60,143 bases of DNA from Crocinitomicaceae bacterium (GTDB lineage: Bacteria; Bacteroidota; Bacteroidia; Flavobacteriales_D; Crocinitomicaceae). Shown here in pieces: positions 12,461 to 30,542 of this stretch (position 1 is its first letter; every line of letters starts with the position of its first letter). The notes under the pieces were generated by a model. It was not told where the DNA came from. It was given only the letters and a program-made list of their open reading frames with translations, and did not search any database. The position numbers were made by a program, and so were the translations under genes. The DNA is taken from contig JAQWKT010000011.1 of NCBI GenBank assembly GCA_029247685.1, positions 1 through 60,143 on the forward strand, written 5' to 3'.

Positions 12461-13105
12461 ATGAAAAAACACTTTATTTTTATCTTTTTCTGTTTATTTA
12501 TTTCTCTTTATCACGGACAGGTTTCAGAAGGTTTTTTTCAATACAATATAGATGTAACAGCAATTGACACGAGCATGGAAACTCGAAAATCTGCAAGCAT
12601 GCTTCAAGATAGCAAAATGACCATTTATTTTGAACAAAATAAATACACCAAAATAATTTTTAAAATGGGAATGATGTTTAATGCAGATATAATTGTAGAT
12701 CACAAAACCAATGAATCTCTGACCCTAAGCACTAGCTTTATGGGGAAACATGCAATCAAATCACAAGTAAATCCAGAAGAAAGCATCAAAAAAGATTCTT
12801 CCATATTAGTAGATTTTACTGGGGAAGAAAAAACCATCCTAGGCTTTAAGTGTAAAAAGGCGATACTCAAAAATAAAAACAGCGATCAAAAGCTTACCTA
12901 TTGGTATACCAACGACATTAAGATAAAACTCTATAACACGCCATTTGTTAATCCAAATATCCCAGGATTTCCTTTAGCATTTAGCACCATTGACAAAGGG
13001 GTATTCATGCGTTATCAAGCCTCTAACTATGGTTTTGAATTAACGGACAAAGAAAAAATATTCTCTTTTGAAATACCGGAGGGATATACCTTAACTAAAG
13101 AATAA
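12461..13105 (+). CDS. Exported DUF4412-like protein
   Basis: This 214-residue protein has a clear signal peptide (FIFIFFCLFISLYHGQ). The mature part is a run of beta strands with YFEQNKYTKIIFKMG, DHKTNESLTL, GEEKTILGFKCKKAIL and TYWYTNDIKIKLYNTPFV. The order (measure of a stored value, then TILGFKCKKA, then a tryptophan-tyrosine strand) resembles the Bacteroidota DUF4412/GLPGLI-like periplasmic proteins, which have a LolA-like half-barrel fold. It stands alone between convergent and divergent neighbours and has its own candidate promoter. The exact function is unknown. Confidence 0.75.
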   Translation: MKKHFIFIFFCLFISLYHGQVSEGFFQYNIDVTAIDTSMETRKSASMLQDSKMTIYFEQNKYTKIIFKMGMMFNADIIVDHKTNESLTLSTSFMGKHAIKSQVNPEESIKKDSSILVDFTGEEKTILGFKCKKAILKNKNSDQKLTYWYTNDIKIKLYNTPFVNPNIPGFPLAFSTIDKGVFMRYQASNYGFELTDKEKIFSFEIPEGYTLTKE

Positions 13106-13186: not shown

Positions 13187-14926
13187 TTAAATTGCTATTT
13201 CTACTTCTGAAACAAGATCAATAATAACCACTCTATTCAAAGAATGGTCTTTTTGAGAACAAGATTTTTTGCATTTTACTGGTGGATCTATTTCACCATA
13301 AGACCGAAGAACAATTTTTTCTTTTGGAACTCCTTTTGAAACCAAATAATCCCTTGTTCTTTTGGCTCTTCTCATTGCCAAATCTTTGTTATAAGTATTC
13401 GACCCTCTTGAATCCGTATGCCCTTTTAGCAATACGCTTTTATTAGGGTTATTTATTAGATATTCTAATAGAGAGGAAACTTCCAGTTCTTCCTTGAGTT
13501 TATCGCTATCAAAATCAAAGTATAGATTTTTATTATCCCATTTTGATTGGATAGCTAATTCCTTTTGAATATTTTCCTTTGTATTATTTCTCAATTGATA
13601 CGAAGAATCTAATTCATCTAGAAGCGATACTAAACTGTCTTTTGTCGTATAATCTATAAAATAAATGTCGTCATCCCCAGTTCCCATTCTATTTGAAGAA
13701 AAATAAAGATGACTTCCATCAGAAAGCCAATTGCAATTAAAATCATCTTTAAAGCTATTGATAGGATAATCAAGATGTTTTTTTTCTGAAAAAATCCCAT
13801 TGCTAAATTGGAATTGATAAAGATCTAATCCACCATATCCATATGGAGAATTAGAAGAAAAAATAACCACGGAATCGCCACTATACATTGGATACATGTC
13901 ATCAAAGGGGGTATTAATTTCTATTATTGGCTTGGGTTTTGCCCATTTATTTAAATCACTTTTATAAACAGACATGAAAATATCGGATCCATTTGTAGAG
14001 TCAGATATTTTTGAAAAAATTAAAAAACGACCATTTTCGCTTGTAGAAACATGAGCACAACTTGAACTATCCTGATATCCAGAATAATCCCAAGGTTTAT
14101 TAATCGTAATCGTAGAAAAATCAGCACTAAATACTCCTTCATAAATTCTAGAAACTTTGTCAATCGGTTTTTTTTGTAAAGGAAGACTAAGTGCGATATA
14201 AACTATATTATTTAATGGCGAATTAGCAATGGAATTCACACTGCAATTAGTTAAATCAAGACCAGCAACCGAATCAATTATTTCAATAAAACCATGATCC
14301 ACGATATATGGTCTTAATAAAAAAAGTTCTGCACTATCTAATTGGGATGTGTTGACAAAAGCTCCTGAGCTATCTTTTGCCTTTTCTTTATAAATAATCT
14401 TTTTAGAGGAAAATGATGGGGATGAAATTAAAAAATTTGGGCCATTTATATCTGCTTTAGTGGTGTTATTTGGTAATTCAATAATTTTTTTGCTTTCATC
14501 TATTTTTTTTAAAACGAGTTGGTCACAAGCAGCTATTTTAGCAGAAACATGATATTCCTTTTCAAAATCTTCTGGTATTGGATTTATTTTAAGATAAGAT
14601 TGCTTGGCAGCATCAAAATTCATCATTGAATAATTAATTTCTCCATACATGTAGTAAAAAAATGGATCAAGATGTTCCCATTGATTTAAAGTATCTAGAT
14701 ATTCTCTACTTTTTGAATAATTTCCAATTACATAATAGGAATATGCTACCCGTTTTAAATTATCCCTTGATAGCGGTTTAATTTGATTGCATGCATTGTA
14801 TATTTGAGCCGATTTTGAATATTCATACTTTTCAAACCAATAATTCGCATCGCTTAAATTCTGTGCTTTTCCAATGGAGAAAAACAACAATACAAAACAA
14901 AAGAAAAATTGAATTTTCATTTTCAT
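13187..14926 (-). CDS. PorE-like OmpA-family protein (TPR, propeller, OmpA)
   Basis: This 579-residue exported protein has an N-terminal signal (ending near GKAQ, residue 22) and a TPR region (about 25-125, with YWFEKYEYSKSAQIY and AYSYYVIGNYSKSREYL). A PD40/WD40-like propeller follows (about 160-430, with GRFLIFSKISD, PMYSGDSVVIFSSNS and DGSHLYFSSNRMGTGDDDIY). The C-terminal OmpA peptidoglycan-binding domain (about 465-575) has YFDFDSDKL and GHTDSRGSNTYN. This architecture is that of PorE and related T9SS accessory proteins, which anchor the secretion machinery to peptidoglycan. It is the last gene of the SprB-like operon, 2 bases after porP/sprF, so it probably serves the adhesins encoded upstream. 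Confidence 0.85.
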   Translation of the reverse strand: MKMKIQFFFCFVLLFFSIGKAQNLSDANYWFEKYEYSKSAQIYNACNQIKPLSRDNLKRVAYSYYVIGNYSKSREYLDTLNQWEHLDPFFYYMYGEINYSMMNFDAAKQSYLKINPIPEDFEKEYHVSAKIAACDQLVLKKIDESKKIIELPNNTTKADINGPNFLISSPSFSSKKIIYKEKAKDSSGAFVNTSQLDSAELFLLRPYIVDHGFIEIIDSVAGLDLTNCSVNSIANSPLNNIVYIALSLPLQKKPIDKVSRIYEGVFSADFSTITINKPWDYSGYQDSSSCAHVSTSENGRFLIFSKISDSTNGSDIFMSVYKSDLNKWAKPKPIIEINTPFDDMYPMYSGDSVVIFSSNSPYGYGGLDLYQFQFSNGIFSEKKHLDYPINSFKDDFNCNWLSDGSHLYFSSNRMGTGDDDIYFIDYTTKDSLVSLLDELDSSYQLRNNTKENIQKELAIQSKWDNKNLYFDFDSDKLKEELEVSSLLEYLINNPNKSVLLKGHTDSRGSNTYNKDLAMRRAKRTRDYLVSKGVPKEKIVLRSYGEIDPPVKCKKSCSQKDHSLNRVVIIDLVSEVEIAI

Positions 14927-14928
14927 TT

Positions 14929-15879
14929 TTATTCAGGCGAATAAATTCTATTCCTTTTTAACCAAGGAGTACGAGCATTTGATGATTTAGAAGAGTTTAA
15001 TTGAATTTCCAAAAGAATTTCATGACTTCCATTAGAATAATCTCCAATATCTGAAAGAGTGTAATCATAAGAATACCCAATTTTAAATATGCCAACTTGT
15101 CCACCAAATATTGCCGCAATTGCATCCTGATGTCGATAAGAAGCTCCAAGCCATAAAAAGTTTTTATATACCCCAATAGCAGTTGCATCAAATTGGAAAG
15201 TGCCTGTTTCAATTCCTTGAACCAAACAAGAAGTTTTCAAGTCAAAAGATTTTGATAAATCAAAATTATACCCACCGAAGAAATAATACGTTCTAACTAA
15301 TGGATTAATTAACGGGTTTTCAAAATTATAAAGATCTCTTTTCATTTCTGCTAAATTATATGCAGACAAACCTACAAATGCCTTGTCTTTATATCGATAG
15401 AATAATCCAAAATTAGCATCTGGGACCATTTGGTTGTTGTATCCTCTTAATACAGCAGGATCATCAGGGAGATAGGTGGTTAATTGATTAACATCAATCA
15501 TGTGTTGCGTTAAGGAAACACCCAAACCTACCCCTAAAATATGCGAATTCGATTGATCTAATTGCAAGTGATAGGCCGTGTTTAATTGTAAACCTGTTCT
15601 TCTAGATGGACCACAAACATCGTTAAATAAAGTTCCTCCAAATCCCATCTTTTTGAAAATCGAAGAATTGGCAGAAATTGCTTGTGTAGTTGGAGATCCA
15701 GGAAAGGAGGTCCATTGTTTTCTAAAGTTAAATTGCACCGGAATATATTCTTTGATTCCGGTTGCTCCAGGATTAACAAACATTTCGTTAAATAAATACT
15801 GAGAATTTAACGAAATCTGTTGACCAAATGAAAACAAGCTCGTTAGGAGAATGGAAAATAAAAAAACATATTTTTTCAT
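14929..15879 (-). CDS. PorP/SprF family T9SS outer membrane protein
   Basis: This is a 316-residue outer membrane beta-barrel protein. After a signal peptide (ending SFGQ) comes the family signature with LNSQYLFNEMFVNPGATG, then FRKQWTSFPGSP, and the repeated aromatic-ended strands typical of PorP/SprF (FGLFYRYKDKAFVGLSAYNL, FKIGYSYDYTLSDIG). SprF is required for secretion of SprB in Flavobacterium johnsoniae, and PorP/SprF homologues accompany cargo with type B C-terminal domains. Here the gene is 6 bases downstream of two type B cargo genes, so it is very likely their dedicated partner. The protein ends in an unusual basic tail (NARTPWLKRNRIYSPE). Confidence 0.93.
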   Translation of the reverse strand: MKKYVFLFSILLTSLFSFGQQISLNSQYLFNEMFVNPGATGIKEYIPVQFNFRKQWTSFPGSPTTQAISANSSIFKKMGFGGTLFNDVCGPSRRTGLQLNTAYHLQLDQSNSHILGVGLGVSLTQHMIDVNQLTTYLPDDPAVLRGYNNQMVPDANFGLFYRYKDKAFVGLSAYNLAEMKRDLYNFENPLINPLVRTYYFFGGYNFDLSKSFDLKTSCLVQGIETGTFQFDATAIGVYKNFLWLGASYRHQDAIAAIFGGQVGIFKIGYSYDYTLSDIGDYSNGSHEILLEIQLNSSKSSNARTPWLKRNRIYSPE

Positions 15880-15885
15880 AATAAT

Positions 15886-18800
15886 CTATCTTATAATTAT
15901 AATATTTCCGGTTACAGGATCTCGATCCTGTTGATTTAATTCTATTTTGTAATAATATACTTCAGAGGGTAAATCCTTATTTAAGGATCTTCCATCCCAA
16001 GGAAGGTAATCACCAGATTGTTCATGTACAATTCTTCCCCATTTATTATAAATCGAAAGTTTCATGTTTGGGTATAAATCCAGATTGTCAATCATCCATG
16101 AGTCGTTATAATTATCGCCATTTGGTGAAAAAGTATTAACTGGATCAATGCAAGAAGAAGTTCCTTGGGTAACAAAAGCAGAATCTGAAATAGTACAACC
16201 TAATAAATCTGAAACAGTAACATAATACCAATTACTGGATAAGTCCATTATGCTATTTGCATTCTCTCCATTTGACCATATATAAGAATATCCTCCACTT
16301 CCACCAGATGGGTTTGCAAAAATAGAACCATCGGATTTATCAATACAACTTGCTGCAACGACATCCAAATACATAATAAGAGGATCTGGTTCTGAAATGG
16401 AAAGACTAATAGAGTCCGTGCAGTTTTTTTGATCAACCACCACAAGTTGATAGAAACCAACAGGAAGACTAGATGGATTAGATGTTGTATCACCATTTGA
16501 CCATGTATAAGAATAATTAGGATTTCCACCCGTTACCGACACAAGAACTTCTCCACCTGCTGATCCTGCGCAAGGAGAATTAATAACATTATACGAAATT
16601 ACAAGAGAATCTGGTTCAGATAGTGGAACATAAATTTCATAAAAACAATTATTTGAATCAATTATTTCAACTTGATAAGTATCTGCACTAAAACCAGTTA
16701 AATTTTGTGTTTGTGCAGAAAGAGCAAATTGTGAATTATACCAAGTATAAGAATATGGTGCCGTACCTCCTGAGGGATTAATATTAATATTCCCATCCGC
16801 AAAGCCTTTACAGCTAACCGGCGTTATAATTTCATTTAAACTCAAAGGCAAAGGTTGGTTTACCAAAATAGAATCGGTCAAAAAACACATGCTATTATCC
16901 GTAACCGTATATAAATAATATCCAGCAGATAAATTATCTATAAAAGATAAACTATCTCCACTAGACCATGAATAGCTATAAGGAAAATTACCACCGGAAA
17001 CAGATAAATTTATATATCCATTTGTCCCATCATAGCAAATAACATCAGAAACAACATTAGAAATACTTAAACTATCCAAAGGCTCACTTATTAATATACT
17101 ATCAATAAGACTACAATTATTCGAATCAGTAATGGTTACCGAATACAGATTGGAAGTTAATAAAGAGATATCTTGTGTTGTAAACCCATTACTCCAAGAA
17201 TAAGTATAAGGAACAACACCACCTGTTACACTAAGATCTACAGATCCATTCGCATTTCCTTTGCAAAGAATATTAACTCCTAAAAGGCTAGATGTAATTT
17301 GACTTGGCTGAGTTATAATTAAGGTATCTACATATATACAACCATTATTATCAGTTAATTGATAGCGATACTGATCTGCTGGAAAATTCATTAAATCTTC
17401 ATTGGAATAACTTAACAAAAAAGTGCTGTTTGACCATGAAAAAGAATAAGGACTTGAACCACCTGATGGAGTTAAATCAATAATTCCTGTAGAATCCCCA
17501 TAACAGCTAACATCACTTATCACATTAGAAACAGAAAGTGCCTGACTAGGTTGATCGATGGTAAATTGACCTGTATAATTACAATTTGTGAAATCAATAA
17601 TTGTATATCCGTATGAACCAGAAAGTAAATTTGAAATATCTTGTGTGGTTTGTCCATTTGTCCATGAATAGCTATAAGGGGAAGTCCCTCCTGCAATTGT
17701 CAAATCTATTTCGCCAGTATTTTCACCATAACACAATACATCCAACACATTTGCTGTTACAATAACAGGCATACTAGGTTGAGTAACCTGATGTTGATAA
17801 GATTCAATACAAGACGAATTATCGGTTATCGTTAAGGTATAAATTCCAGCTTGAATATTAGTGAGATCTTCCGAAGAAGATATCACAGAACCACTCTGAT
17901 TAGACCAAGAATAAGAATATGGCATTGATCCTCCTGTAATTGTTGCATCTATTGTTCCTGTAGATTCTCCAAAACAAATTACATTATTTCCTGTAGTTGT
18001 CGCAATTAACTGTGGTGGTTGTGCGATTGTAAAGCTATCTACAAACTGACAACCAAAAGCATCCGTAACGGTAAGTTGGTAAACATCAGCAACAACATTT
18101 GAAATACTTGAACTAGAAGCAGAAAACAAAGTAGTTGAATTTTGCCATGAATAAGCGTAAGGAGCAGAACCCCCTGAAGGACTAAAAGATGCAGAACCAG
18201 TTGACAAACCAAAGCAAGTAACATTAATGGGACTTGTTGTTCCTCCTAAAGCAGATGGCTGAATTATATCGTAAGATTTATTGATGGAACAACCATTTAT
18301 ATCGGTAATGGAAACTACATAATTTCCTGCTGTTAGAGAAGAAATATCTGCTGTTCCCTGGCCAGAAGACCAAGAATAGGTATAGGCTGGTGTGCCACCC
18401 CAAACGCTCAAATCAATTTCCCCTGTTGCAGAAGAAAAGCAAGAAGCTTGCGTTACGGAGGCATTAGCTTGAAGTGCCTCTGCTGGTTGGGTTATCGTAT
18501 AAATTTGTGAATAAGTACATCCCCCATTATCGGTGATATTCATGGTGTAAGATCCAGCAGGAACATTTGTTAGGTCTTCTAAACTAGTTGAGTTTGACCA
18601 AGTACTGGAATATGGGGTATTACCTCCATTAATTGTAACGTCAATAGCCCCAGTTGATTGTCCAAAACAAGAAACATTTGAAATGTTTTCAGAAACTATT
18701 ATTGGTAGAGGTGCTCCTACAACAAATGCTCCTACGACTGTACATCCAGAAGCATTGTCTTGAACATTAACCGTATAAGTTCCAACAGAAAGACCTGAAA

Positions 18801-19008
18801 TAGAGGAAGAATTTGCTCCATTGGACCAAGAAATAGTATAGTTACCACTCCCACTTGAGATTGCAACCTGTGCCGTTCCGTTAGTATATCCAGAACAGGT
18901 GACATCCGATCCTGACATTACGATTGTAGGGCAAGAAGCAAAATAATTTGTAACAAAAAACAAATTAAGTAACAAAAAATTAAAACACTTATTTATTTTC
19001 TTTTGCAT
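15886..19008 (-). CDS. SprB-type repeat adhesin, type B T9SS cargo (1040 residues)
   Basis: After a signal peptide (about residues 1-24) the protein consists almost entirely of 12 tandem SprB repeats of about 75 residues. Each has the form [x]xxVxCxGxxxGxI, then GGxxPYxYSWSNG, then GxYxxxVTDxxGC and xxxxQP. The C-terminal 85 residues are a gliding-motility-associated type B sorting domain (SPNGDNYNDSWMIDN, IYNKWGRIVHE, PSEVYYYKIEL, GNIIIIR). SprB is the mobile adhesin of gliding flavobacteria; this protein is much shorter and could be a mobile or a static adhesin. Its ATG overlaps the stop of the larger adhesin by one base (TAATG), indicating coupled synthesis. Confidence 0.92.
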   Translation of the reverse strand: MQKKINKCFNFLLLNLFFVTNYFASCPTIVMSGSDVTCSGYTNGTAQVAISSGSGNYTISWSNGANSSSISGLSVGTYTVNVQDNASGCTVVGAFVVGAPLPIIVSENISNVSCFGQSTGAIDVTINGGNTPYSSTWSNSTSLEDLTNVPAGSYTMNITDNGGCTYSQIYTITQPAEALQANASVTQASCFSSATGEIDLSVWGGTPAYTYSWSSGQGTADISSLTAGNYVVSITDINGCSINKSYDIIQPSALGGTTSPINVTCFGLSTGSASFSPSGGSAPYAYSWQNSTTLFSASSSSISNVVADVYQLTVTDAFGCQFVDSFTIAQPPQLIATTTGNNVICFGESTGTIDATITGGSMPYSYSWSNQSGSVISSSEDLTNIQAGIYTLTITDNSSCIESYQHQVTQPSMPVIVTANVLDVLCYGENTGEIDLTIAGGTSPYSYSWTNGQTTQDISNLLSGSYGYTIIDFTNCNYTGQFTIDQPSQALSVSNVISDVSCYGDSTGIIDLTPSGGSSPYSFSWSNSTFLLSYSNEDLMNFPADQYRYQLTDNNGCIYVDTLIITQPSQITSSLLGVNILCKGNANGSVDLSVTGGVVPYTYSWSNGFTTQDISLLTSNLYSVTITDSNNCSLIDSILISEPLDSLSISNVVSDVICYDGTNGYINLSVSGGNFPYSYSWSSGDSLSFIDNLSAGYYLYTVTDNSMCFLTDSILVNQPLPLSLNEIITPVSCKGFADGNININPSGGTAPYSYTWYNSQFALSAQTQNLTGFSADTYQVEIIDSNNCFYEIYVPLSEPDSLVISYNVINSPCAGSAGGEVLVSVTGGNPNYSYTWSNGDTTSNPSSLPVGFYQLVVVDQKNCTDSISLSISEPDPLIMYLDVVAASCIDKSDGSIFANPSGGSGGYSYIWSNGENANSIMDLSSNWYYVTVSDLLGCTISDSAFVTQGTSSCIDPVNTFSPNGDNYNDSWMIDNLDLYPNMKLSIYNKWGRIVHEQSGDYLPWDGRSLNKDLPSEVYYYKIELNQQDRDPVTGNIIIIR
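16155..18912 (-). repeat. 12 tandem SprB repeats (protein level) in the 1040-residue adhesin
   Basis: Twelve consecutive units of roughly 70-80 codons can be counted by their xCxG near the start and GGxxPYxYSW in the centre. The DNA copies have diverged, so these are protein-level repeats and not recent DNA duplications. Boundaries are approximate. Confidence 0.85.
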
Positions 19009-22000
19009 TATCTAATAATTGTAATTGTACCTGTATATTGGTCATTATTTGGGTTTTCCAATTTAATCACGTAATAATAAACAGCAGCAGGAAGTGGTGC
19101 TCCATTTTTAGTTCCATTCCAAGGCTTGTATTGACCAATTGATGAATAAACTTCCCTACCCCATTTATTAAATATTTTAACAATTGCATTTGGATATAAA
19201 TCCAAATTATCTAATACCCATGTATCGTTATAATTATCGCCATTTGGAGTAATCGTGTTTGGCACATGAACACATTGCTCATAACTAAGTGCTATATTGA
19301 ATGTATCAATTATTGAGCAAGCATTAAAGTCGGTAATATTTATAATATAATCTCCTGCTATAATATCGATTAAATCTTTTTGTATGGATCCATCACTCCA
19401 ATAAAAAGAATATGGCTGTGTTCCACCATGAACATCAATTTCAATACTTGCATCAGATTGATCTATACAACTTAAGGGAGATACCATGTATGATAGGTCA
19501 AGTTTAGATGGCTGACTTAATAATGCCGTTCCAGATAATTCACAAGCATTAGAATCTATAATCAAATACTCGTATTCACCAGATTGAAGATTAGTAATGA
19601 TTGGAGAGGTATTTCCAGTAGACCATAAATACGTATATGGGGATATTCCTCCTGAAACGCTTAAATCAACAGCTCCAGTAGAATCTTCAAAACAAAGTAA
19701 ATTGCTTGTTTGAACATTAACAGAAATCGCAGTTGGTTCATTTACAGTAATTACTTGTTCATTGACACATAAATTCTCATCCCTTATTCGAACAAAATAA
19801 TTTCCTTGAGAAAGATCTGATAAAGTTTGTCCATTATTACTTAACAATATTTCATTTTGATTTCCCCAATTAAAATAATAAGGTTGAGTTCCTCCTGTAA
19901 TGCTTAAGTTAATTTCTCCATCGGAATAAGAATAACAGGAAACATCAGTAACTAAAGAATTTACCAATAATTCTAAAGTAGGCTCATTTATATTTGCACC
20001 AGAAAAAGAGGTGCATAAATTTCCATCAGTAACGGTTAAATTATAAGAACCTACTGATAGGTTATAAAGATTTTGTGATGTTTGACCAGTAGACCAATTA
20101 TAAGTGTATGGAGGTGTGCCACCGTTAACAAAGCATTCAACAGAACCATCCGAACCATTTTTACAATTAACATCGCTCGGATTTGTAACAATTGATAATG
20201 GTGATGAAGGTTGATTAATTATAAATGATTGTGCTAAAGAACATCCATTACTATCTGTAACAGAAACAGTATAAGAAGCCGATTGAAGGGAATTGACATC
20301 TTGGGTGGTTTGGCCGTTAGACCAACTATACGAATAACCAGGTGTTCCTCCTGAAATAGCAACGTCAATTTCTCCATCAGATGCTCCATAACATTTTGCG
20401 TCAATTGAAGAATGGGTTAATGACAACGGATTTAAAGGCTCAGAAACCACTATCGATAAAGTTTGATGACAAGCGTTACTATCTAAAACATTAACAATGT
20501 ATGTATCCGCTGGAAGAGAAGAGATATCTTCGGTTGTATCTACAAGAATAGCCGTAATTCCATTAGACCATTGAATCGTATATGGCGATACACCACCAGA
20601 AACATCGAGATCAATACTACCTGTAGTATCCCCATGGCATAATACGTCTGAAACATTGGAAGAAAGAGATAGAGCACTAGCAGGTTGAGTAAGAATAATT
20701 GTTGTATCAACTTGGCAATTGTTGCTATCGGACAAAATTAAATTATAAACCCCCGAAGAAAGATTAATAATACTATTGGAATTTTGTCCGTTTGACCAGG
20801 AATAAGAATATCCAGGAGTTCCACCTGAAGGAATTGCAACAATAGAACCAGTGGTATCTCCGAAACATAATATATCTGTTTTTTCAATCGAAACACTTAA
20901 TGGATTAGAGGGTTGGTCTAATGTAAATACATAAGATTTAGTACATAAATTATTATCCGAAAAATTGAGAGTATAGGTACCAGCAGCTAAATTACTTATA
21001 GAGGGTGAATTTGAACTATTAGACCATGAATAAGAATATGGCATAACTCCTCCAGATATATTTGGATCAATAGCTCCATCATTATCATCAAAACAATTAA
21101 TTTGACTAATAATTGGAGTGGAAATAATTTGTGCTGGTTGATTAACCGTTTCAGAGATTTGATTTACACAACCGTTGTTATCGGTAACTATAATAGTATA
21201 AGTTGCTGCAGGAAGATTAGAAACATCTTCGCTAATAAAAGGCAATACTGTTCCTAAAGAACTAGACCATAGAAAAGAATAACCTACCGTTCCACCGGTG
21301 ACAGTTAAATCAATTGATCCAGTTGAATCGGAAAAACATAAAACATCCACTGAAGAAGAGGATAAGGTTAATGGATTTGTTGGTTGATTAACTATATGTG
21401 TTTCAGTACTTGTACAACCTTTTCCATCGGTAACGGTGAGCGTATAGCTACCAGCATTTAAACTATCTATATCATCTACTAGTTGACCATTACTCCATGA
21501 ATAAAAATAAGGCAAAGTGCCTCCAAAAACATCAATATCAATTTGTGCATCATTATTTCCATTGCAATTAACATGAGTAATCGCAGCTACTTGACCAAGA
21601 ATATTTGGTTCCAAAATAGTTACGCTTAATGATTTTTGACAACCAACATTATCTGTTACAGTTAGCGAATATGTTCCAGCATCTAGAGAAGATACATCTT
21701 CGCTACTTGCCCCGTTACTCCAGGAAAATGTATATGGGCCTGTCCCCCCTTGAACCAATAAATCAATAGACCCATCATTAATTCCACCATTGCAACTTTT
21801 ATCTGTCTTGGTATAGGAAAGCATTAAATCTTGTGCTGGTTCTGTTATTGTTGCTCCCGTAAATAATTGACATCCATTATTATCGTATATAGAAACCTGA
21901 TAAGCACCTGCAGGAATATTGGATAAATTTTGTGTTGAACCACCATTAGTCCATGTATACGTATATGGTAATGCAGGAGAAATTGCATTAATAGTGGTAT

Positions 22001-23552
22001 TTATGCTTCCAGTGCTATCTCCAAAACATAAAATATTAGTGGAATTGCTAGCAATAGACAAAGGACTTGCCTTCATGGTAAAAGCAGGTTTGGTGTATTC
22101 ATCAAAACCTTCTAAACTCCAAGTATTATCATATAAATCAAATGTGAAACCACCAATAGGCAGTGAAGTACTCCACAATGGGCCAATACCTAAATTTAAT
22201 CCGCTCCAACCAATAGCAGGAATATTTATAGCAGGAGTACATACCTCCGTCCAACATATTTTGAAAGGATTGGACCAAGTTGGACATGGGTATGGAATAT
22301 CAATACAAACCGCTGGTATATTAATTGCTGGAGTAATTGTAATCCCTGGAATAACTAGACTAAATTCAAAAGCAGACATATCTAAACTAAAACCTATAGA
22401 ATCGTAAGTGTGATTTCGCAAAATGCCATCAATGGAATAAGTTGGAATAATATCAATTTCATCAAAATGACAAGGGAAATTATATTGTAAATCATTTCCT
22501 AAATCTACATTAACAATACTACTAGTTCCAGACTCTACAATTGATCCCGAGGGATCTCTCTCTTGAAAGTTTACTGCGAATGGAAATTCAAATCTCCCTT
22601 TAACCGTTGGAGTGAAATTAAAACACTGCTTCATGAAATTGTTTAAGACAAAGGAAGCCGAAAAAAAGTTCCAGTTAAGTGTTGCTACCCCCCCTAAACT
22701 TTGACTACCACTTAAATTACCTAAAACCAATCCAACAGGACCAGGGATATTCCCTAATAAAGCAAAAATATCAAGAGCCATATTGCTATACAAATCTTCT
22801 CCACATGCACCTAAATTATTACCCGATAAATTGTGACTTGTGGAAACATATGGGATATCTAACTCGCCAGTTAGTCCATAATTTCCAAGAACAGGTGGAA
22901 GCGATAAAGGCAATCCGGTGCCATAAGAAAATAAAGGTGCCCCTCCATTAAAAGAAAAGAACTCGATGCCATAAATATTTGCCGTAAAAATATTTATGTT
23001 TTGAACGCCGGTATTAAACGTAGGAATAATTGGAAAAGTAACACAACCAAAAACGCAAATAGTTGCAGATAAACTAGCCCCAAGTTGAAAATTCAAATCA
23101 AGTCTTGCCTCTCCAACACTAGGGAAATAAGTATCTAATGAATATCCTGATGAAACGGAATATTCCGTTTCAATAGTAACCAAATCGCCTTGATCATACG
23201 TATTATCTACTGGCATATCCAAGGTAATATCAACCGGATAGGTTACTGCTACTTCTCCAGTTGTGAAACCTAAAAGTGAAAAATCCATGCCAATAAAACC
23301 TGAAAAATTACCAGCAACACCTGCCCCAAAACTAGAACCTAAAATATTAACTATCCCTCCATTTCCAGTATCAAAATTGACGTTCCATGGCATATTAAAA
23401 ATTGGAATAACTTGATTAAAACTAAAAGCACTAAAAGATGGACCCCACATATTTTGATTGCCAGATGCAAAATCAACATGATGATTAATGGTCTGTTGAG
23501 AATTAACAGAAGTAAATAAAAAAAGAAAAACGATTAATAATACTTTTCTCAC
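19008..23552 (-). CDS. SprB-type repeat adhesin with unique N-terminal module (1514 residues)
   Basis: This is a large secreted protein: signal peptide (1-18, ending VNSQ), an N-terminal module of about 480 residues, 12 SprB repeats (about 500-1420) and a type B gliding-associated sorting domain (TPNGDNYNDTWVLDN, IFNKWGREVYSS, LPAAVYYYVIKLE, GTITIIR). The N-terminal module is rich in Gly, Phe, Pro and Ile. It contains two copies of PAINIPA (around residues 408 and 440) and several cysteines, and I do not recognise it as a known domain; it is the likely functional head carried by the repeat stalk. The gene overlaps its upstream neighbour by 4 bases (ATGA) and its downstream neighbour by 1, so the whole set is one operon. 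Confidence 0.9.
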   Translation of the reverse strand: MRKVLLIVFLFLFTSVNSQQTINHHVDFASGNQNMWGPSFSAFSFNQVIPIFNMPWNVNFDTGNGGIVNILGSSFGAGVAGNFSGFIGMDFSLLGFTTGEVAVTYPVDITLDMPVDNTYDQGDLVTIETEYSVSSGYSLDTYFPSVGEARLDLNFQLGASLSATICVFGCVTFPIIPTFNTGVQNINIFTANIYGIEFFSFNGGAPLFSYGTGLPLSLPPVLGNYGLTGELDIPYVSTSHNLSGNNLGACGEDLYSNMALDIFALLGNIPGPVGLVLGNLSGSQSLGGVATLNWNFFSASFVLNNFMKQCFNFTPTVKGRFEFPFAVNFQERDPSGSIVESGTSSIVNVDLGNDLQYNFPCHFDEIDIIPTYSIDGILRNHTYDSIGFSLDMSAFEFSLVIPGITITPAINIPAVCIDIPYPCPTWSNPFKICWTEVCTPAINIPAIGWSGLNLGIGPLWSTSLPIGGFTFDLYDNTWSLEGFDEYTKPAFTMKASPLSIASNSTNILCFGDSTGSINTTINAISPALPYTYTWTNGGSTQNLSNIPAGAYQVSIYDNNGCQLFTGATITEPAQDLMLSYTKTDKSCNGGINDGSIDLLVQGGTGPYTFSWSNGASSEDVSSLDAGTYSLTVTDNVGCQKSLSVTILEPNILGQVAAITHVNCNGNNDAQIDIDVFGGTLPYFYSWSNGQLVDDIDSLNAGSYTLTVTDGKGCTSTETHIVNQPTNPLTLSSSSVDVLCFSDSTGSIDLTVTGGTVGYSFLWSSSLGTVLPFISEDVSNLPAATYTIIVTDNNGCVNQISETVNQPAQIISTPIISQINCFDDNDGAIDPNISGGVMPYSYSWSNSSNSPSISNLAAGTYTLNFSDNNLCTKSYVFTLDQPSNPLSVSIEKTDILCFGDTTGSIVAIPSGGTPGYSYSWSNGQNSNSIINLSSGVYNLILSDSNNCQVDTTIILTQPASALSLSSNVSDVLCHGDTTGSIDLDVSGGVSPYTIQWSNGITAILVDTTEDISSLPADTYIVNVLDSNACHQTLSIVVSEPLNPLSLTHSSIDAKCYGASDGEIDVAISGGTPGYSYSWSNGQTTQDVNSLQSASYTVSVTDSNGCSLAQSFIINQPSSPLSIVTNPSDVNCKNGSDGSVECFVNGGTPPYTYNWSTGQTSQNLYNLSVGSYNLTVTDGNLCTSFSGANINEPTLELLVNSLVTDVSCYSYSDGEINLSITGGTQPYYFNWGNQNEILLSNNGQTLSDLSQGNYFVRIRDENLCVNEQVITVNEPTAISVNVQTSNLLCFEDSTGAVDLSVSGGISPYTYLWSTGNTSPIITNLQSGEYEYLIIDSNACELSGTALLSQPSKLDLSYMVSPLSCIDQSDASIEIDVHGGTQPYSFYWSDGSIQKDLIDIIAGDYIINITDFNACSIIDTFNIALSYEQCVHVPNTITPNGDNYNDTWVLDNLDLYPNAIVKIFNKWGREVYSSIGQYKPWNGTKNGAPLPAAVYYYVIKLENPNNDQYTGTITIIR
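19277..22055 (-). repeat. 12 tandem SprB repeats (protein level) in the 1514-residue adhesin
   Basis: Twelve units can be counted from NILCFGDSTGSINTTI to PLSCIDQSDASIEIDV, most with GGTxPYxYSWSNGQ centres. The repeat number equals that of the adjacent 1040-residue adhesin. Boundaries are approximate. Confidence 0.85.
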
Positions 23553-24136
23553 TCCTTTATTTTTGATAAATCAATAGATTGAATACATTTAAGTATTTCG
23601 GTTTCAATAAGATCTTCTAATCGAAGTGGATAAGTAATGGTAAGCCAAATGGTTTTATTTAAATCCCCAGCATATACCATATATCGACCAAATGTATTTC
23701 CTTCAAGATTGAAATTAAACTTATACCAAATCCCCTTAACTCCTGCTTTAGATACAATCTTTTTTTCAGAAATATATTTAAGTTTGTTTTTTTTATAAAA
23801 TTCTTGATTCATCCCTTCCGATAATTTTCGAAAATTTACCTTTTTAATGAGGCTAACAATAATTGCTGTACTAGCTTGATAATGAATAAACCCATTAAAC
23901 GAAGGAGAAACTTCAAAACCTTCTGGAGATTCAATAACCTCAAGATTAACATTGATTACTTCTGGGGTTGTAAATAACGTCTTATCGTTAACGTCTTTAT
24001 CACTTTGATTCACTTGAACAAATGCGATAAATGGAAAAAAAATAAGGTAAAAAATAGAGCTTTGAATAAAGAGAACATAAACTAAACAACTTAAAGCAAA
24101 TCTAAAAAAAAATATATCTAAAACATAATAAATCAA
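23549..24136 (-). CDS. Exported protein, DcrB/PsbP-like (tentative), first gene of SprB-like operon
   Basis: The 195-residue protein opens with about 40 strongly hydrophobic residues (two short membrane spans, or one long signal-anchor) followed by a soluble domain of about 150 residues. The soluble part has NGFIHYQASTAIIVSLI, KYISEKKIVSKAGVKGIWYK, NTFGRYMVYAGD and IWLTITYPLRLEDLI, ending in a helix LKCIQSID. This strand-helix order resembles DcrB/DUF1795/PsbP-like proteins; I offer that only tentatively. Its stop overlaps the start of the 1514-residue adhesin as ATGA, so it is the promoter-proximal member of the five-gene cassette. No canonical start other than the ATG at 24136 gives a complete signal segment. 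Confidence 0.7.
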   Translation of the reverse strand: MIYYVLDIFFFRFALSCLVYVLFIQSSIFYLIFFPFIAFVQVNQSDKDVNDKTLFTTPEVINVNLEVIESPEGFEVSPSFNGFIHYQASTAIIVSLIKKVNFRKLSEGMNQEFYKKNKLKYISEKKIVSKAGVKGIWYKFNFNLEGNTFGRYMVYAGDLNKTIWLTITYPLRLEDLIETEILKCIQSIDLSKIKE

Positions 24137-24185: not shown

Positions 24186-27035
24186 ATGTTTCTTAAAAAA
24201 TCGCTGTTATTAATTTGTTTTTATTTTCTGCAAATTTCCGCTTTTTTAGCTGCTGATTACTATTGGATTGGAGGAAGTGGAAACTGGTCAGACCCTCAAA
24301 AATGGGCATTAAGTTCAGGTGGAGCTCCTGCAGGATCAACTCCAACAGGTTTAGACAATGCTATTTTTGATAGTCAATCTTTTTCTTTACCCAATCAACA
24401 AGTCATTATAGATGATTCCACCAATATTAATTTAATGGACTGGTCTCTTTGTACTAATTCGCCAGAGTTAATCTTGGATACTAACTTATTTATTAACGGA
24501 AACACTACACTTCACCCAAGCATGAGTGTTCACAGTAATAACATTACTTTTCGAATACAATTTCTAGCTCAATCTTTTTTCAATCCTAATGGAGCATTGA
24601 TTGATTGTAATATCTCGATATACCTTAACAACGACATTGAAACATTAGATTTAAACAACAACCTATTAATGAGCGATTCTTCTACTATTTTTTTAATGAA
24701 AGGAGAATTTAAAACTAACAACAATGCCATAACTTCTGGAATTATAAACGTTGTTGATGTTGATTCTACATCAAAAAAATCACTTATTCTTGGAAACTCA
24801 GAAATAAACTTATCCATTGGATTTTATGCTCTTAATATCATTGATTCAAATTTTACCTTCAATGCTGGAAATTCATTAATTTCAATTGGAGATAGTAACT
24901 ACGTAAATTATTTAAATTCAGATAGTTTAACTTTTTATAATATTCATTTGAACTTTGACACAACATCAAGTCAACAAACGCTTAAAGGAAATAATATTTA
25001 CAATAAATTAATTATCAACAAAGGAAGCAAAATCAAAATTGATTCTGCAAGTATTCATACTGTTAATGATAGTCTTATTTTTTCTGGTACTTGTATAGAT
25101 TCGGTTTATCTTTTTTCTTCCAACCCCTCTTTTGCTGCCATATTTAACAAAAGCTCTAATAATGATGTTTTTTCGGAGTGTGTAAATTTTCATGGAATTT
25201 CATTTTCTAATGCTTCATTAACCACCTACTTTTCTAACGATCAAGGAAATAATAACAACATAAGCTTTAGTACCTCCTCTTCAGTTAATGCAAACTTTAA
25301 TGTTGTAGGGCCTTTTTGCTTGGGAGACACCACATTCTTTTCCAATACATCCACTTGTTTTTCTGGAAACTCAAATGACTTTAATTCAATTTGGTACTTT
25401 AATGATGGTTCTGGGTATTATTTAAACCCACCTTTAGACAGCACATGGATCTCTTATCAAAATGATACCAACGCGCATGTTTTTATTCAAAATGGAGACT
25501 TTTCTGTTTCTCTTATTACCACTTATAATAACTTTTGTAAAGATACTGCTACAACAGTTGTTCATATTAATGACCCATCAATATACTTATACACCGCATC
25601 TGACACAAACATATGTGCTGGAACAGAAATAAGCTTTGAAGCATCCAGTGGAGTGTCTGGTGCAGAATTTGAATTTTTCCATAATGGAATATCTCAAAAC
25701 ACTCCATCCATAAATGACACTATTTTTACCATTAATTCGCTTTCTAATAATGATTCGGTAAGTGTTTTTGCCTATGAAAATGGCTGTGTAAGTTCTAGCA
25801 AACCTTCTTACACCTTTGTTGTAAACCCTTCCCCCACTTACACTTGGTCATCTAATGACCCCGACACAACAATCTGTTCTTTAGATAGTGTTAGTTTTTA
25901 TGCAAGTTCCTTAGATACTTCTTATGTTTATCAGTTTTTGGTGAATAATTCTGGTGTAACTTCTTATATGAATACTCCAAGTTATACGACAAATTCTATC
26001 CTAAATAACGATACCGTTCAATTGGTAGTTAAAGACACTTTGAACTGCACAGATACTAGTTTTATGATATTCACTGTCAACCCTTTACCTATTACAACAT
26101 TAAGTGAATCTTCAGGATCAAATGTTATTTGTTCTGGTCAAGCAATCACCTTTACAGCATCCGGAGCTGATTTATACGAATTTTTCATTAATGGAGTTTC
26201 TCAAACTGGGTTAATTCCCTCAAATACATTTGTAAGCGCTTCTTTAAATTCGGGAGACTCAGTAACAGTTATTGGTGAAACAAATAACGGTTGTGTAAAA
26301 CAAGCAGATGAAATATTCTCGTATACTGTAAATCCATTACCAAATGTTGGCTTAACATTCAACTCCATTGATACTACAATTTGTTCTGGCGAAAATGTTA
26401 TATTCAATGCCTTTGGCGCAAGTATTTATGAGTTTTTTATTAATGGCATTTCTCAAGGATCTGCCTCCTCGTTCTCCACTTTAAACACCACCACATTAAA
26501 CCATTTTGATACGGTTTATGTCATTGGAACATTTAGTGGATGCTCTAATTATACAGATAGTGCGATTTTTACGGTTAACACCTCCCCAACAACTAATCTA
26601 ATTTGTGATGATATAGATGCCATTATTTGTTCGCAAACCCTTGTTAATTTTAATGCCTCTGGGGCAAATTCATATGAATTTTTTGTAGATGGAGTTTCTC
26701 AAGGAGCACCTTCAACATCATCTACTTTTAGCACATCTTCTCTAACAAATAATCAAACCGTTTCTGTAACAGGTGAATCCAATACATGTACAGTTAGTCA
26801 AAGCATTCAATTTAGCGTTCTACCTTCTCCATCTGTTGGTTTTTTCTCTAATGATCCAAATAATTCCATCTGCGAGGGAGAAACAATTACCTTTACATGT
26901 GCCAATGCAGATCAATACGAACTATTTGTCAATGGCAACTCCCAGGGCTCTCCACAAAACAACTCTATATTTACACCAAACCTTCCAAATGGAATTGATT
27001 CCTTATATATAATTGGAACGGCATTAAATGGATGA
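24186..27035 (+). CDS. Giant T9SS adhesin, N-terminal part, interrupted by in-frame TGA
   Basis: 949 codons from the ATG at 24186 to a TGA at 27033-27035. A signal peptide (ending FLAA) is followed by the Bacteroidota surface motif YYWIGGSGNWSDPQKW and a beta-helix-like region of about 350 residues. A PKD/Ig-like stretch comes next and then six tandem units of about 85 residues with the form IC-SGExVTFTASGAxxYEFFVNGxSQG and a closing NGC. The piece has no sorting domain. The same frame continues without any shift to 30542, and the TGA falls exactly where the other repeats have the NGC cysteine. It is therefore the front half of a 2118-codon gene. It is divergent from the SprB-like operon, with 49 bases between them. 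Confidence 0.85.
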   Translation: MFLKKSLLLICFYFLQISAFLAADYYWIGGSGNWSDPQKWALSSGGAPAGSTPTGLDNAIFDSQSFSLPNQQVIIDDSTNINLMDWSLCTNSPELILDTNLFINGNTTLHPSMSVHSNNITFRIQFLAQSFFNPNGALIDCNISIYLNNDIETLDLNNNLLMSDSSTIFLMKGEFKTNNNAITSGIINVVDVDSTSKKSLILGNSEINLSIGFYALNIIDSNFTFNAGNSLISIGDSNYVNYLNSDSLTFYNIHLNFDTTSSQQTLKGNNIYNKLIINKGSKIKIDSASIHTVNDSLIFSGTCIDSVYLFSSNPSFAAIFNKSSNNDVFSECVNFHGISFSNASLTTYFSNDQGNNNNISFSTSSSVNANFNVVGPFCLGDTTFFSNTSTCFSGNSNDFNSIWYFNDGSGYYLNPPLDSTWISYQNDTNAHVFIQNGDFSVSLITTYNNFCKDTATTVVHINDPSIYLYTASDTNICAGTEISFEASSGVSGAEFEFFHNGISQNTPSINDTIFTINSLSNNDSVSVFAYENGCVSSSKPSYTFVVNPSPTYTWSSNDPDTTICSLDSVSFYASSLDTSYVYQFLVNNSGVTSYMNTPSYTTNSILNNDTVQLVVKDTLNCTDTSFMIFTVNPLPITTLSESSGSNVICSGQAITFTASGADLYEFFINGVSQTGLIPSNTFVSASLNSGDSVTVIGETNNGCVKQADEIFSYTVNPLPNVGLTFNSIDTTICSGENVIFNAFGASIYEFFINGISQGSASSFSTLNTTTLNHFDTVYVIGTFSGCSNYTDSAIFTVNTSPTTNLICDDIDAIICSQTLVNFNASGANSYEFFVDGVSQGAPSTSSTFSTSSLTNNQTVSVTGESNTCTVSQSIQFSVLPSPSVGFFSNDPNNSICEGETITFTCANADQYELFVNGNSQGSPQNNSIFTPNLPNGIDSLYIIGTALNG

Positions 27036-28800
27036 ACCGATACAAGCCAAGGTATTATTGTAACAGTTACCCCTCTTCCATCCATAACTTTAACTAGTTC
27101 AGATATTGATAATATTTTTTGCTCCGGCGAAAGCATCACATTTACAGCAAGTGGAGCAACTCTTTTTCAATTTGTTATTGACGGAGTCCCTCAAGGGAGT
27201 TTATCTTCTAGCAATACATTAACCACCACTGGTATTTCTAATGCACAATCAATTTATGCGATAGGATCTACATTGGGTTGTTCCAGTAATTCCAATACAA
27301 TAACCAATATCGTAAATCAAAACCCTAATGTAATCCTAACAAGTAATGACATCAATAATGTATTTTGTCAAGACCAAATTGTAACATTTACGGCGGGGGG
27401 AGCTAATTCTTATGAGTTTATTGTGAATGGCATATCACAAGGTAACCCATCCACCATCGACACTTTAAATTCTTCAAATTTCACCATTGGAAACTATTCC
27501 GTTACGGTTAATGGCGAACAAAATAACTGCTTTGGAACCGCTAGCCTACAAGTTAGTGTTAATCAAGTTCCAGGCGCAAATATTATTTCTTCAGACATAG
27601 ACAACATAATCTGTCAAGGAGAAATGGTAACTTACACTTCTTCTGGAGCAAATTTATATGAGTTTTTTGTCAATAATGTTTCTATATCTTCCCCATCACC
27701 AATTAACACTTTTTCCACCTCATCCCTTAACAATGGCGATATAGTTTCTGTTGTAACCTCCTCTAGCAATGGTTGCTCCAACTCATCTGCATATGCACCA
27801 ATAACGGTGAATTCAAACCCCGTTATTTCACTAACAAGTTCTCCACAAAATCAACAAATATGTTTGAACGACACGGTTATTCTTAGCGCAACAGGAGGAA
27901 GTTTATATGAATTTTTTGTAGATGGAGTTTCTCAAGGTCCTTCTTCTTCAACTAATTCGATAACAATTAATAATTTAGGGAATGGAAATAATGTTTATGT
28001 GCAAGGAACTCAAACCGGATGTTCGGCAATATCTAACTCATTTAATTATACCGTTTTTAATAATCCAGTCGTTGCGTTAATAAACAACGAAGACAGTTTA
28101 TTATGTGATTTTGAAAGCACTAATTTAATTGCAACTGGTGCTAACCAATATCAATTCCTTATAAATGGTATTCCAATCGGACCATATAGCTCCGTAGACA
28201 CCCTTGCCTCTTTATTAGCTAATGGGGATATTGTTTCGGTTAATGGACAAACCAATGGGTGTGCATCAATTTCAAATAACACAATTACATTTACCGTATT
28301 TAATACCCCAATTATATCAACTGTTTGCTCTGACTTAGACACAACTATTTGTTTAAATGATAGTGTTCATTTCACTTCTACAGGTGCTTCTGAATATTTA
28401 TTTGAACTTAATGGAGCTTCTTTACAAAACAGTACACTTAACACGTTCTATTTAAATTACTTAAATCAAAATGACACTTTAAAAATAACGGGTTTTAATG
28501 GGCATTGTTCCTCTAATTCCAATAGTTATGTATTTACTGTAAATTCAATGAATTTAAATTCGAGTGTTTCTCCCTCAACACTTATTTGTGAAGGAGATTT
28601 AGTTACCATAAATGCCTCTGGAGGAGACTTATACGAGTTTTTTGTCAATGGCATCTCCGTATCAAACCAAAGTTCACAATCAGATTACAGCAGTTCCACC
28701 CTGAATAATCTGGATGAAATCACCTATACCGCATACTCCAATTCCACATCATGTTTACAAGAAAACGACGATTTTATCTCCATAAGTGTAATTGCTACCC
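25580..28800 (+). repeat. 13 tandem Ig-like repeats (protein level) across the interrupted adhesin
   Basis: Six units precede the TGA and seven follow it, all in one frame and with the same spacing. The consensus is DxxICxGExVTFTASGA, YEFFVNGxSQG and a final GC. Two cysteines per unit are conserved and probably form a disulphide. Boundaries are approximate. Confidence 0.8.
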
Positions 28801-30542
28801 CATCTTTTAATGTTCTTCCAAATACGACATTTTGCGAAGGAGATTCGGTAAGATTGTACAGTAATTCTGGTCTTGGAAATCAATGGCTTTTAAATGGAAC
28901 TCCAATTCTAAGTGCTACTGATACCACCTATACTTCATACGCTAGTGGAGATTACTCATTAGAGGTTCTTATTGGAGGAAATGGAGAAGTTTTTTCAATT
29001 GGACAAAATGCAAATGGTATTTTTGGAGCTGGAAACAACTTAAACAGTTTTTCTCCGATAAAATCTCCGTATTTTTCAAACTTTTCTTCTTTATCTTCTG
29101 GATTTGATTTTATGACCGGTGTTGATTCTTCTGGCAATGCTTATTCATGGGGAAACAACAGTTCTGGACAACTTGGAGATGGAACGTTTACAAATTCTAA
29201 CATTCCTAATTTAATTGCATCTTTATCGAACATTAAATTTGTGTCTACTACATCCTCGAGTTGCATGGCAATTACAAATACTGGAGAAGCATATGTCTGG
29301 GGGAACAATAGTGAAGGCCAATTATCTACTGGAAATACAAGCGTCATTAACTTTCCTTATTTAAATACAAACATCAATAATATTGATACTGTTGCTGCAG
29401 GTAAAAATCATTTTATTTTGCTTAAAAATGACAGCACTGTTTGGTCTGTTGGAAACAATGATTTTGGACAATTAGGACAAGGTAATTTAGTTTCTCAAAA
29501 TAATATTCAACAAATACTTCCCCTTAACAACATCGTTAAAATTGGTACTGGAGAATACCATAGTTTTGCGATCAACTCTAATGGCAAGCTATATGTTTGG
29601 GGAAATAATTCATCAGGGCAACTTGGACTTAACGATTATAACAACAGGTTAAGCCCCGCATTATCCCCTTTACAAAATATTATTCAAGCAGAAGGAGGAG
29701 CAAGTCATAGTGTCTTTTTAAACAGCAACCACAAAGCTTATGCTACTGGTGCAAATAATTTTGGACAATTAGGCCTTGGAAACCAAGGCTCTATTATAAG
29801 CCCTCAAGAAATCCAAATTAATGGAGTAAGAATGATTTCTATATCCCAAAACACAAGTCTATTTTTAAGAAATGACTATTCGGTTTATGGGTGTGGAAAT
29901 AACCTGGAAAATCAACTCAACTCTACCTCCATAAATATCATTAATAGCCCAAGTAGAATATCTGAAATATATGGGATTGGATCGATTGAAGCTTCTAAAT
30001 CAAGTTCTCATTTTCTTGCAAACAATTTAAAAATTTGTGTTTCACCAATCGTTACTATTACTGCATTAACAAACCCAATAGTAAGCATTAATTCTATTGG
30101 AGATACTTTAACATGCACTTCAGGAAGTAATTATCAATGGTATTTTAATGGCTCTATGATACCGGGAGCTAACTCCTCTTCATTTGTAGCTAATGGTACT
30201 GGTAATTATAGTGTATTGGTAACATATGCAAATGGATGTTCCAATATGTCTTCGGATTTCTTTCATTCCATGAGTAATCTTTTAGATTTCGATCATATTA
30301 ACTCTAAAGTTTCTATCTACCCTAATCCTGCTAAGGATTATTTACAAATTAAAATAAATGGGAATGATCAGGCGTTTCAAAAAATATTAATCACAGATAT
30401 TTTTGGTAGAATCGTTAGAAAAATGAATCTCAACGAATTTCAAAACAAACCCATTTCATTGAAAAAAATGGAAAATGGTTGCTACAACCTTATTCTAATT
30501 CATTCAAAAGGAAAACTAGTAAAACGATTCATTAAAAATTAG
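27036..30542 (+). pseudogene. Giant T9SS adhesin, C-terminal part (in frame with 24186-27035)
   Basis: The frame is open from the codon after the TGA. A TTG at 27273 could be called as an independent start, but a start there would give a protein without signal peptide and cut into a repeat. The segment holds seven more Ig-like repeats, an eighth divergent one (FCEGDSVRLYSNSG), then a seven-bladed RCC1-like propeller (about 28975-30030; blades marked by WGNNSSGQLG-type motifs), another Ig-like unit (NYQWYFNGSMI) and a type A T9SS sorting domain (IYPNPAKDYLQIKI, ITDIFGRIVR, CYNLILIHSKGK). It needs the upstream half for export. Whether it is a pseudogene, a sequencing error or is read through is open. 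Confidence 0.75.

Follow-up and report, generated by a model that had tools for sequence, protein, structure and literature searches.

The window analysed here, 60,143 nucleotides of a Crocinitomicaceae bacterium, forms contig 19 of a genome of 2.2 Mb in 83 contigs. Between positions 13187 and 24136 it carries a cassette of five minus-strand open reading frames (Table 1), whose coordinates reproduced the gene order, the overlaps of 4 and 1 bases and the gaps of 6 and 2 bases given by the first-pass annotation. The start of gene 1 is uncertain because no in-frame ATG is present. Pfam analysis revealed twelve SprB repeats and a CHU_C domain in each of the two adhesins (Adh1 and Adh2), and OmpA plus PD40 domains in the last gene. 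The earlier count of twelve repeats per adhesin was the same by Pfam, a six-frame search and an HMM built from the cassette's own repeats. The C-terminal sorting domains scored 84.3 and 66.8 bits in Adh1 and 70.8 and 65.3 bits in Adh2 against CHU_C and TIGR04131 (cut-offs 27 and 35), and the fourth protein scored 248.1 bits for TIGR03519 (cut-off 90.55) and 231.5 bits for PF11751 (cut-off 22.3), placing it in the PorP/SprF family. The OmpA domain of the last protein reached 60.6 bits (cut-off 27.2), and the whole protein 127.9 bits against the PorE family NF052230, whose cut-off is 600; the label PorE-like denotes likeness in architecture only.

Table 1. Features of the cassette and its neighbours (window coordinates)
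Feature	Position	Strand	Remark
Gene 1	23549..24136	-	195 aa; exported protein (predicted), DcrB/PsbP/Eag-type fold (model), putative N-module partner; TTG start uncertain
Adh1	19008..23552	-	1514 aa; T9SS cargo of type B with N-module, 12 SprB repeats and CHU_C signal; GTG start
Adh1 N-module	22056..23552	-	about residues 1-499; all-beta (model); no Pfam/PHROG match
Adh1 array	19281..22055	-	12 SprB repeats, residues 500-1424
Adh1 repeat 4	21129..21365	-	long hairpin
Adh1 repeat 7	20430..20666	-	long hairpin
Adh1 repeat 10	19728..19964	-	long hairpin
Adh1 sorting domain	19011..19277	-	type B
Adh2	15886..19008	-	1040 aa; T9SS cargo of type B with short N-terminus, 12 SprB repeats and CHU_C signal; N-module absent
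Adh2 array	16156..18921	-	12 SprB repeats, residues 30-951
Adh2 repeat 4	18013..18237	-	long hairpin
Adh2 repeat 7	17299..17532	-	long hairpin
Adh2 repeat 10	16606..16839	-	long hairpin; most conserved repeat
Adh2 sorting domain	15889..16158	-	type B; 53% identity to that of Adh1
PorP/SprF-family shuttle	14929..15879	-	316 aa; no C-tail cysteine
PorE-like protein	13187..14926	-	579 aa; PD40 propeller, OmpA peptidoglycan-binding domain
Giant neighbour gene	24186..30542	+	Ig_7 modules, RCC1-like propeller, type A sorting domain
GLPGLI-like protein	12461..13105	+	below GLPGLI cut-off; frequent neighbour

The cassette had been called self-contained. Its five genes do adjoin, but a giant type A cargo gene usually, and a GLPGLI-like gene often, flank it. 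Of 33 Crocinitomicaceae cassettes, 27 have a homologue of the giant gene nearby, the other six being loci cut by contig ends, and the GLPGLI-like gene lay near 24 of the 33. At locus L104 the giant homologue is on the same strand as the cassette, 2 bases before gene 1; it was not found in the fetched stretches of L105-L108. The copy in the window is interrupted by a single in-frame stop (27033-27035), and the copies of relatives are long and open; the stop may represent a pseudogene, a sequencing error or a real truncation. A minus-strand gene pair at window 9350-12363 also has homologues close to the cassette in both L039 and L058.

Gene 1 is tied to the N-terminal module of Adh1 (N-module). 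A gene 1-type ORF of 160-202 aa lies directly upstream of all 36 N-module genes for which upstream sequence was available, the two genes overlapping by as much as 44 bases or lying up to 13 bases apart. The gene 1 HMM matched 35 of these ORFs, and the remaining one is 37% identical to one of them. No match away from a cassette was found in the loci examined, the 26 further matches being these same cassettes as they occur in named or edge-cut loci. This survey of neighbourhoods, proposed in the first-pass annotation, thus returned a strict pairing (36/36); the remark there that gene 1 is not a standard member of such loci may be true of SprB/SprF loci at large, but not of this type of cassette, in which it is always present.

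No Pfam or NCBIfam family matched gene 1 at E<=1, leaving the earlier DcrB/PsbP label without sequence support, but the predicted structure agrees with it. The model (pLDDT 93.5) has a DcrB/Mog1/PsbP-type fold, with Z-scores of 14.9 for 3lyd, 12.7 for EagT6, 12.2 for LpqN, 11.9 for DcrB, 11.7 for PsbP and 11.6 for SciW; 122 residues aligned with EagT6 at an rmsd of 5.2 and 113 with DcrB at 2.6. The N-terminus, read by eye, is hydrophobic, which suggests that the protein is exported, and Pfam and NCBIfam detected no sorting domain in it. In its model (pLDDT 84.4) the N-module is all-beta; its longest strands reach 42 residues, and its helices are all short. Foldseek gave no match for it at E<=1e-3, and the best hit (VIA Z 6.9), which fell on Ig-like pieces, was taken as noise, so that neither an Ig nor a toxin label is assigned. 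Pfam found neither PAAR nor any other domain in the N-module, and the prePAAR and N-terminal transmembrane features of Eag partners are not seen in it. Sequence searches of the PDB with profiles of gene 1, the N-module, the PorP and one repeat triad returned no match.

Eag proteins are effector-specific chaperones that are usually encoded beside their effector, according to PMC7773334. By analogy we propose, as the simplest reading, that gene 1 encodes a chaperone of the N-module. A somewhat unlikely alternative is that it is a structural subunit that does not release the N-module but is exported in complex with it; the strict one-to-one gene pairing would suit either role, and the fold relatives include the structural PsbP as well as the Eag chaperones, but gene 1 has no sorting domain of its own.

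The distribution of the cassette is patchy, even within its own genus. Of 200 family genomes searched, 28 had gene 1, and the N-module profile matched 35 of 240 family genomes and 37 of 399 genomes of the order. Across the phylum at least one of 395 genomes matched, that one being the source genome itself, in a screen that scored the best three candidates per genome and that distant forms may escape. Outside the Crocinitomicaceae, the module was found in one of six genomes of the family of genome G613 (f66) and in three of 39 of the family of G655 (f57), and viral contigs gave no match. Weak matches in a further family (f2; G761 and G762) were dropped, the fetched loci being without SprB repeats. 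The named carriers are Crocinitomicaceae and other Flavobacteriales, among them Brumimicrobium oceani C305 (L135) and Fluviicola and Lishizhenia MAGs.

We then compared the number of repeats in the two adhesins. After duplicate loci had been merged (L139 and L210, for example, are one cassette), 39 distinct N-module rows were obtained, seven of which, being incomplete or lacking a partner, were left out of the count (L060, L062, L112, L113, L114, L128 and a lone 3-repeat protein). Among the 32 distinct complete cassettes, 30 had 12 repeats in each adhesin, one had 9 in each (9+9), and one had 11 and 12. Both arrays are also whole, at 12+12, in the edge-cut loci L114 and L128 and in L211. Repeats are roughly 72-78 residues long and have two cysteine positions, each of them occupied in 811 of the 812 repeats; the spacing between adjacent repeats, located with the HMM made from these repeats, is at most 12 residues in every cassette.

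Control arrays behaved differently. Relatives of another SprB protein of the source genome, found through its C-terminal domain in all 61 genomes of the genus, were read at 14 loci (six complete, one without repeats and seven cut by contig ends), and the complete ones, which are relatives rather than proven orthologues, carried 33, 35, 58, 33, 5 and 39-40 repeats; other PorP-linked proteins had 0 to 37. The equality of repeat number in Adh1 and Adh2 is beyond chance. Elsewhere in the source genome (contig 47; L073 11064-19973), an array of at least 36 near-uniform SprB repeats runs into a contig end, and relatives in the genus have up to 58. The first-pass annotation had held that repeat numbers varying independently would speak against matched stalks; such variation was seen in only one of the 32 complete cassettes, L052 (11+12). 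Here Adh1, of 1374 residues compared with 1515 in its nearest relative L050, is without repeat 1 (r1) and the end of the N-module, and Adh2 keeps all 12 repeats. This locus (L052/L133, G157:C2) is the only mismatched cassette, and its 11+12 count may be an assembly error. No further repeat-number change was found in the loci read from the G613 family, the G655 family and the 240 family genomes.

The arrays also share a rhythm. We measured hairpin length as the stretch from a conserved Trp to a conserved Tyr in each repeat, which is 17 residues in most. Across the 12-repeat arrays, including those of L114 and L128, r4, r7 and r10 were long in 32/32 Adh1 arrays (22-24 residues, once 25) and in 33/33 Adh2 arrays (21-23 residues), exceeding the others by 5-6 residues. 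A long hairpin was further seen at r1 in 41% of the Adh1 arrays and 55% of those of Adh2, and at r5 in 91% of the latter. In the 9+9 cassette the long hairpins fall at r1, r4 and r7 of both arrays, with r8 in addition in Adh1, and the lone 3-repeat protein has its long hairpin at r1. None of the control SprB arrays shows this triad phase. In the divergent cassettes L055 and L061 the phase is masked, since the Adh1 hairpins are long throughout r1-r10.

Repeats were conserved by position. When they were matched across species, the repeat of the same index was the best match in 47% (Adh1) and 62% (Adh2) of cases, compared with 8.3% at random, and in the repeat-by-repeat identity matrix of 32 arrays per adhesin the diagonal topped every row (42-48% for Adh1 and 42-60% for Adh2). 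The most conserved repeat is r10 of Adh2, at 60%, and among the long hairpins that of r10 is the most conserved, at 61% and 65% in the two adhesins. The repeats are therefore positional orthologues across species, indicating that the arrays are old and have not been turned over. Between Adh1 and Adh2 there was little index specificity, equal-index repeats being the best match in 13.6% of cases against an expected 8.3%.

The 9+9 cassette gave a view of how the two arrays change. It is found in G613, which also holds a 12+12 cassette. When its nine repeats were fitted to the mean of four related 12-repeat reference cassettes, the best contiguous missing block was r5-r7 in both Adh1 (score 1611, compared with 1588 for r6-r8) and Adh2 (1913 compared with 1878). 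Single references chose r5-r7 in 3/4 cases for Adh1 and 4/4 for Adh2, and column bootstrapping returned this block in 83.5% and 99.1% of replicates respectively, with the same block in both adhesins in 827 of 1000. The dissent lies in Adh1, for which reference L104 favoured r2-r4 by one point and the mean of all 32 references narrowly favoured r4-r6. In the PorP tree, the 9+9 cassette, on a long branch, groups with three 12+12 cassettes (support 100/99), so a loss from 12+12 is the simpler reading; by best fit, both arrays appear to have lost the same block, repeats 5-7. As two separate genes had to change, selection for matching is implied by this single case, the changes in repeat number found being one matched (9+9) and one unmatched (L052). 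In the same locus (L105, G613:C12), positions 14709-17587, which follow the 9+9 cassette and its PorP, hold a second gene 1-type gene and then the lone 3-repeat, one-triad N-module protein.

Repeat arrays that are fixed in number and phase in two neighbouring cargo genes, and that were altered together in one case, lead us to favour a pairing of the two stalks in register. The earlier suggestion of matched stalk lengths or a hetero-assembly is well supported, as number, long-hairpin phase and site of the matched change all agree between the adhesins. We consider it unlikely that the two proteins merely need an equal reach outward from the cell, such as past an outer layer, with each length selected alone and the stalks never touching. 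Equal length would follow from this, and a tip-bearing and a bare stalk could work separately, but the shared triad phase and the loss of the same block are left unexplained. Less probable still, and improbable in our judgement, is that a single 12-repeat gene was duplicated and that the two resulting arrays have just stayed as they were. The positional orthology within each adhesin and the relatedness of the sorting domains fit such stasis; however, equal-index repeats of Adh1 and Adh2 are scarcely more alike than others, other SprB arrays in the genus vary widely, and the 9+9 cassette changed in both arrays.

The sorting domains of Adh1 and Adh2 are 53% identical. In F. johnsoniae, PMC12618676 reports that most type B signals share 20-30% identity, that three orphan signals at more than 44% used one shuttle, and that a signal pair at 43% was without cross-talk. 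Since 53% lies above the level at which a shuttle was shared in that report, the use of one PorP/SprF shuttle by both adhesins, as the first-pass annotation had it, is supported by the likeness of the signals. Two other SprB loci were met in the survey: a lone 2257-aa SprB protein with 15 repeats and no N-module, whose adjoining PorP is 44% identical to that of the window (L146/L147 3218-9991), and a two-adhesin locus with PorP and PorE-like genes whose arrays are unequal, 7/8 or 8/9 by separate counts (L187 3550-9915).

In the gliding system, SprF is described in PMC12635249 as disulfide-bonded to the track protein GldK through a Cys-Xaa-Cys in its C-terminal tail. No cassette PorP has this motif, and no cysteine occurs within the last 45 residues in any of 34. 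Since the cysteines by which SprF is coupled to the moving track are missing from the shuttle tail, the cassette adhesin is predicted from its sequence to be static rather than gliding. The window also has a porE-like gene beside the shuttle and cargo, an arrangement proposed in PMC9143113 as a mark of non-mobile type B proteins, and Fjoh_3952 formed static foci according to PMC12618676. That a peptidoglycan anchor is made together with the cargo, as first suggested, is true of the window but not of every locus: of 34 loci, 26 have an intact PorE-like gene after the PorP, L042 has a split one, and seven have none there (L041, L063 and L104-L108). Loci without it need another anchor, which counts against a fixed set of five genes.

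Apart from the cassette shuttle, the source genome may also have one that is track-coupled. It contains nine PorP/SprF matches, 34 CHU_C matches and SprA, the last spread over two contigs. PorPs on contigs 3 and 17 (L066 9390-10418 and L067 9411-10376) share the same tail with two cysteines each, and the former is followed by a GldJ-like gene scoring below the curated cut-off. It is very improbable, nonetheless, that the cassette encodes a gliding adhesin of the SprB/SprF kind moved along the GldJ-GldK-GldN track: the SprB repeats, the PorP/SprF shuttle, the GldJ-like gene and SprA in the genome, and the description of Fluviicola taffensis as gliding (PMC3236050) would agree with this, but 0/34 shuttles have a tail cysteine against the Cys-Xaa-Cys that SprF needs (PMC12635249), and the adjoining PorE-like gene is the arrangement of static, not mobile, type B cargo as put in PMC9143113 and PMC12618676.

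Taken together, our results lead us to regard a register-matched, static, wall-anchored adhesin of two proteins, with gene 1 as the partner of the N-module, as on balance the probable product of the cassette; its side-by-side assembly, static anchoring, chaperone role and adhesive function are what we infer. A single adhesin would be built from two T9SS type B cargoes, Adh1 carrying its unique all-beta module atop a 12-repeat SprB stalk and Adh2 being a bare 12-repeat stalk that begins straight after a short N-terminus. Each stalk would consist of four triads (long hairpin, short, short), and with the stalks in register the tip module of Adh1 would be located where Adh2 ends. The gene 1 product, translated just before the N-module, would be its dedicated periplasmic partner. 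The SprA translocon would pass both cargoes to copies of one PorP/SprF shuttle, which would then stay in the outer membrane to anchor them; the PorE-like protein would link the shuttle to peptidoglycan. More tentatively, at somewhat short of an even chance, we suggest a heteromeric stalk of two T9SS proteins with a triad-period register and joint changes by whole triads, whose tip is escorted by a chaperone of DcrB/Eag fold; such a dedicated chaperone would be a cargo-specific helper of a kind not met in the T9SS literature consulted.

Several known systems resemble parts of the cassette. Fjoh_3952-Fjoh_3951-Fjoh_3950 of F. johnsoniae, likened here by its description in PMC12618676, likewise places a type B cargo, its cognate shuttle and a PorE-like gene side by side and shares the prediction of a static adhesin anchored to the wall, but the cassette has two cargoes per shuttle, equal phased SprB arrays, and gene 1 with the N-module. 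SprB-SprF shares the SprB repeats, the type B signal and the downstream shuttle gene; however, SprB is presented in PMC9143113 as one 669 kDa protein without a porE-like neighbour, whereas the cassette has proteins of 1514 and 1040 aa and such a neighbour, and the tail Cys-Xaa-Cys given for SprF in PMC12635249 contrasts with a shuttle tail free of cysteine. In Porphyromonas gingivalis, PG1035-PorP-PorE, as described in PMC9143113, similarly joins cargo, shuttle and peptidoglycan anchor, but with a single cargo instead of two repeat-stalk cargoes plus gene 1. The Eag (DUF1795) proteins EagT6 and SciW of type VI secretion share the gene 1 fold and are encoded beside the protein they serve (PMC7773334), as gene 1 adjoins the protein whose N-terminal part it is proposed to assist; gene 1 differs in having no sequence family match, in a hydrophobic N-terminus that suggests export, in its predicted all-beta partner and in having no type VI link. 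No paper naming the cassette in its title or the opening of its abstract was found in the open literature, and as far as literature searches tell, what is new is the paired architecture together with the gene 1-N-module unit, the component parts being of known kinds.

That number and phase are fixed in both proteins, not only across genera but also in further families of the order, speaks for a defined structure of two strands. With about 2,550 residues in two proteins compared with the 669 kDa of SprB, the cassette is a small system that could be used for studying how type B cargo is put together, is anchored and remains static, and how a single shuttle can serve two cargoes; Brumimicrobium oceani C305 is a named strain that carries it. 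It also bears on the question of whether T9SS cargo employs dedicated periplasmic chaperones.
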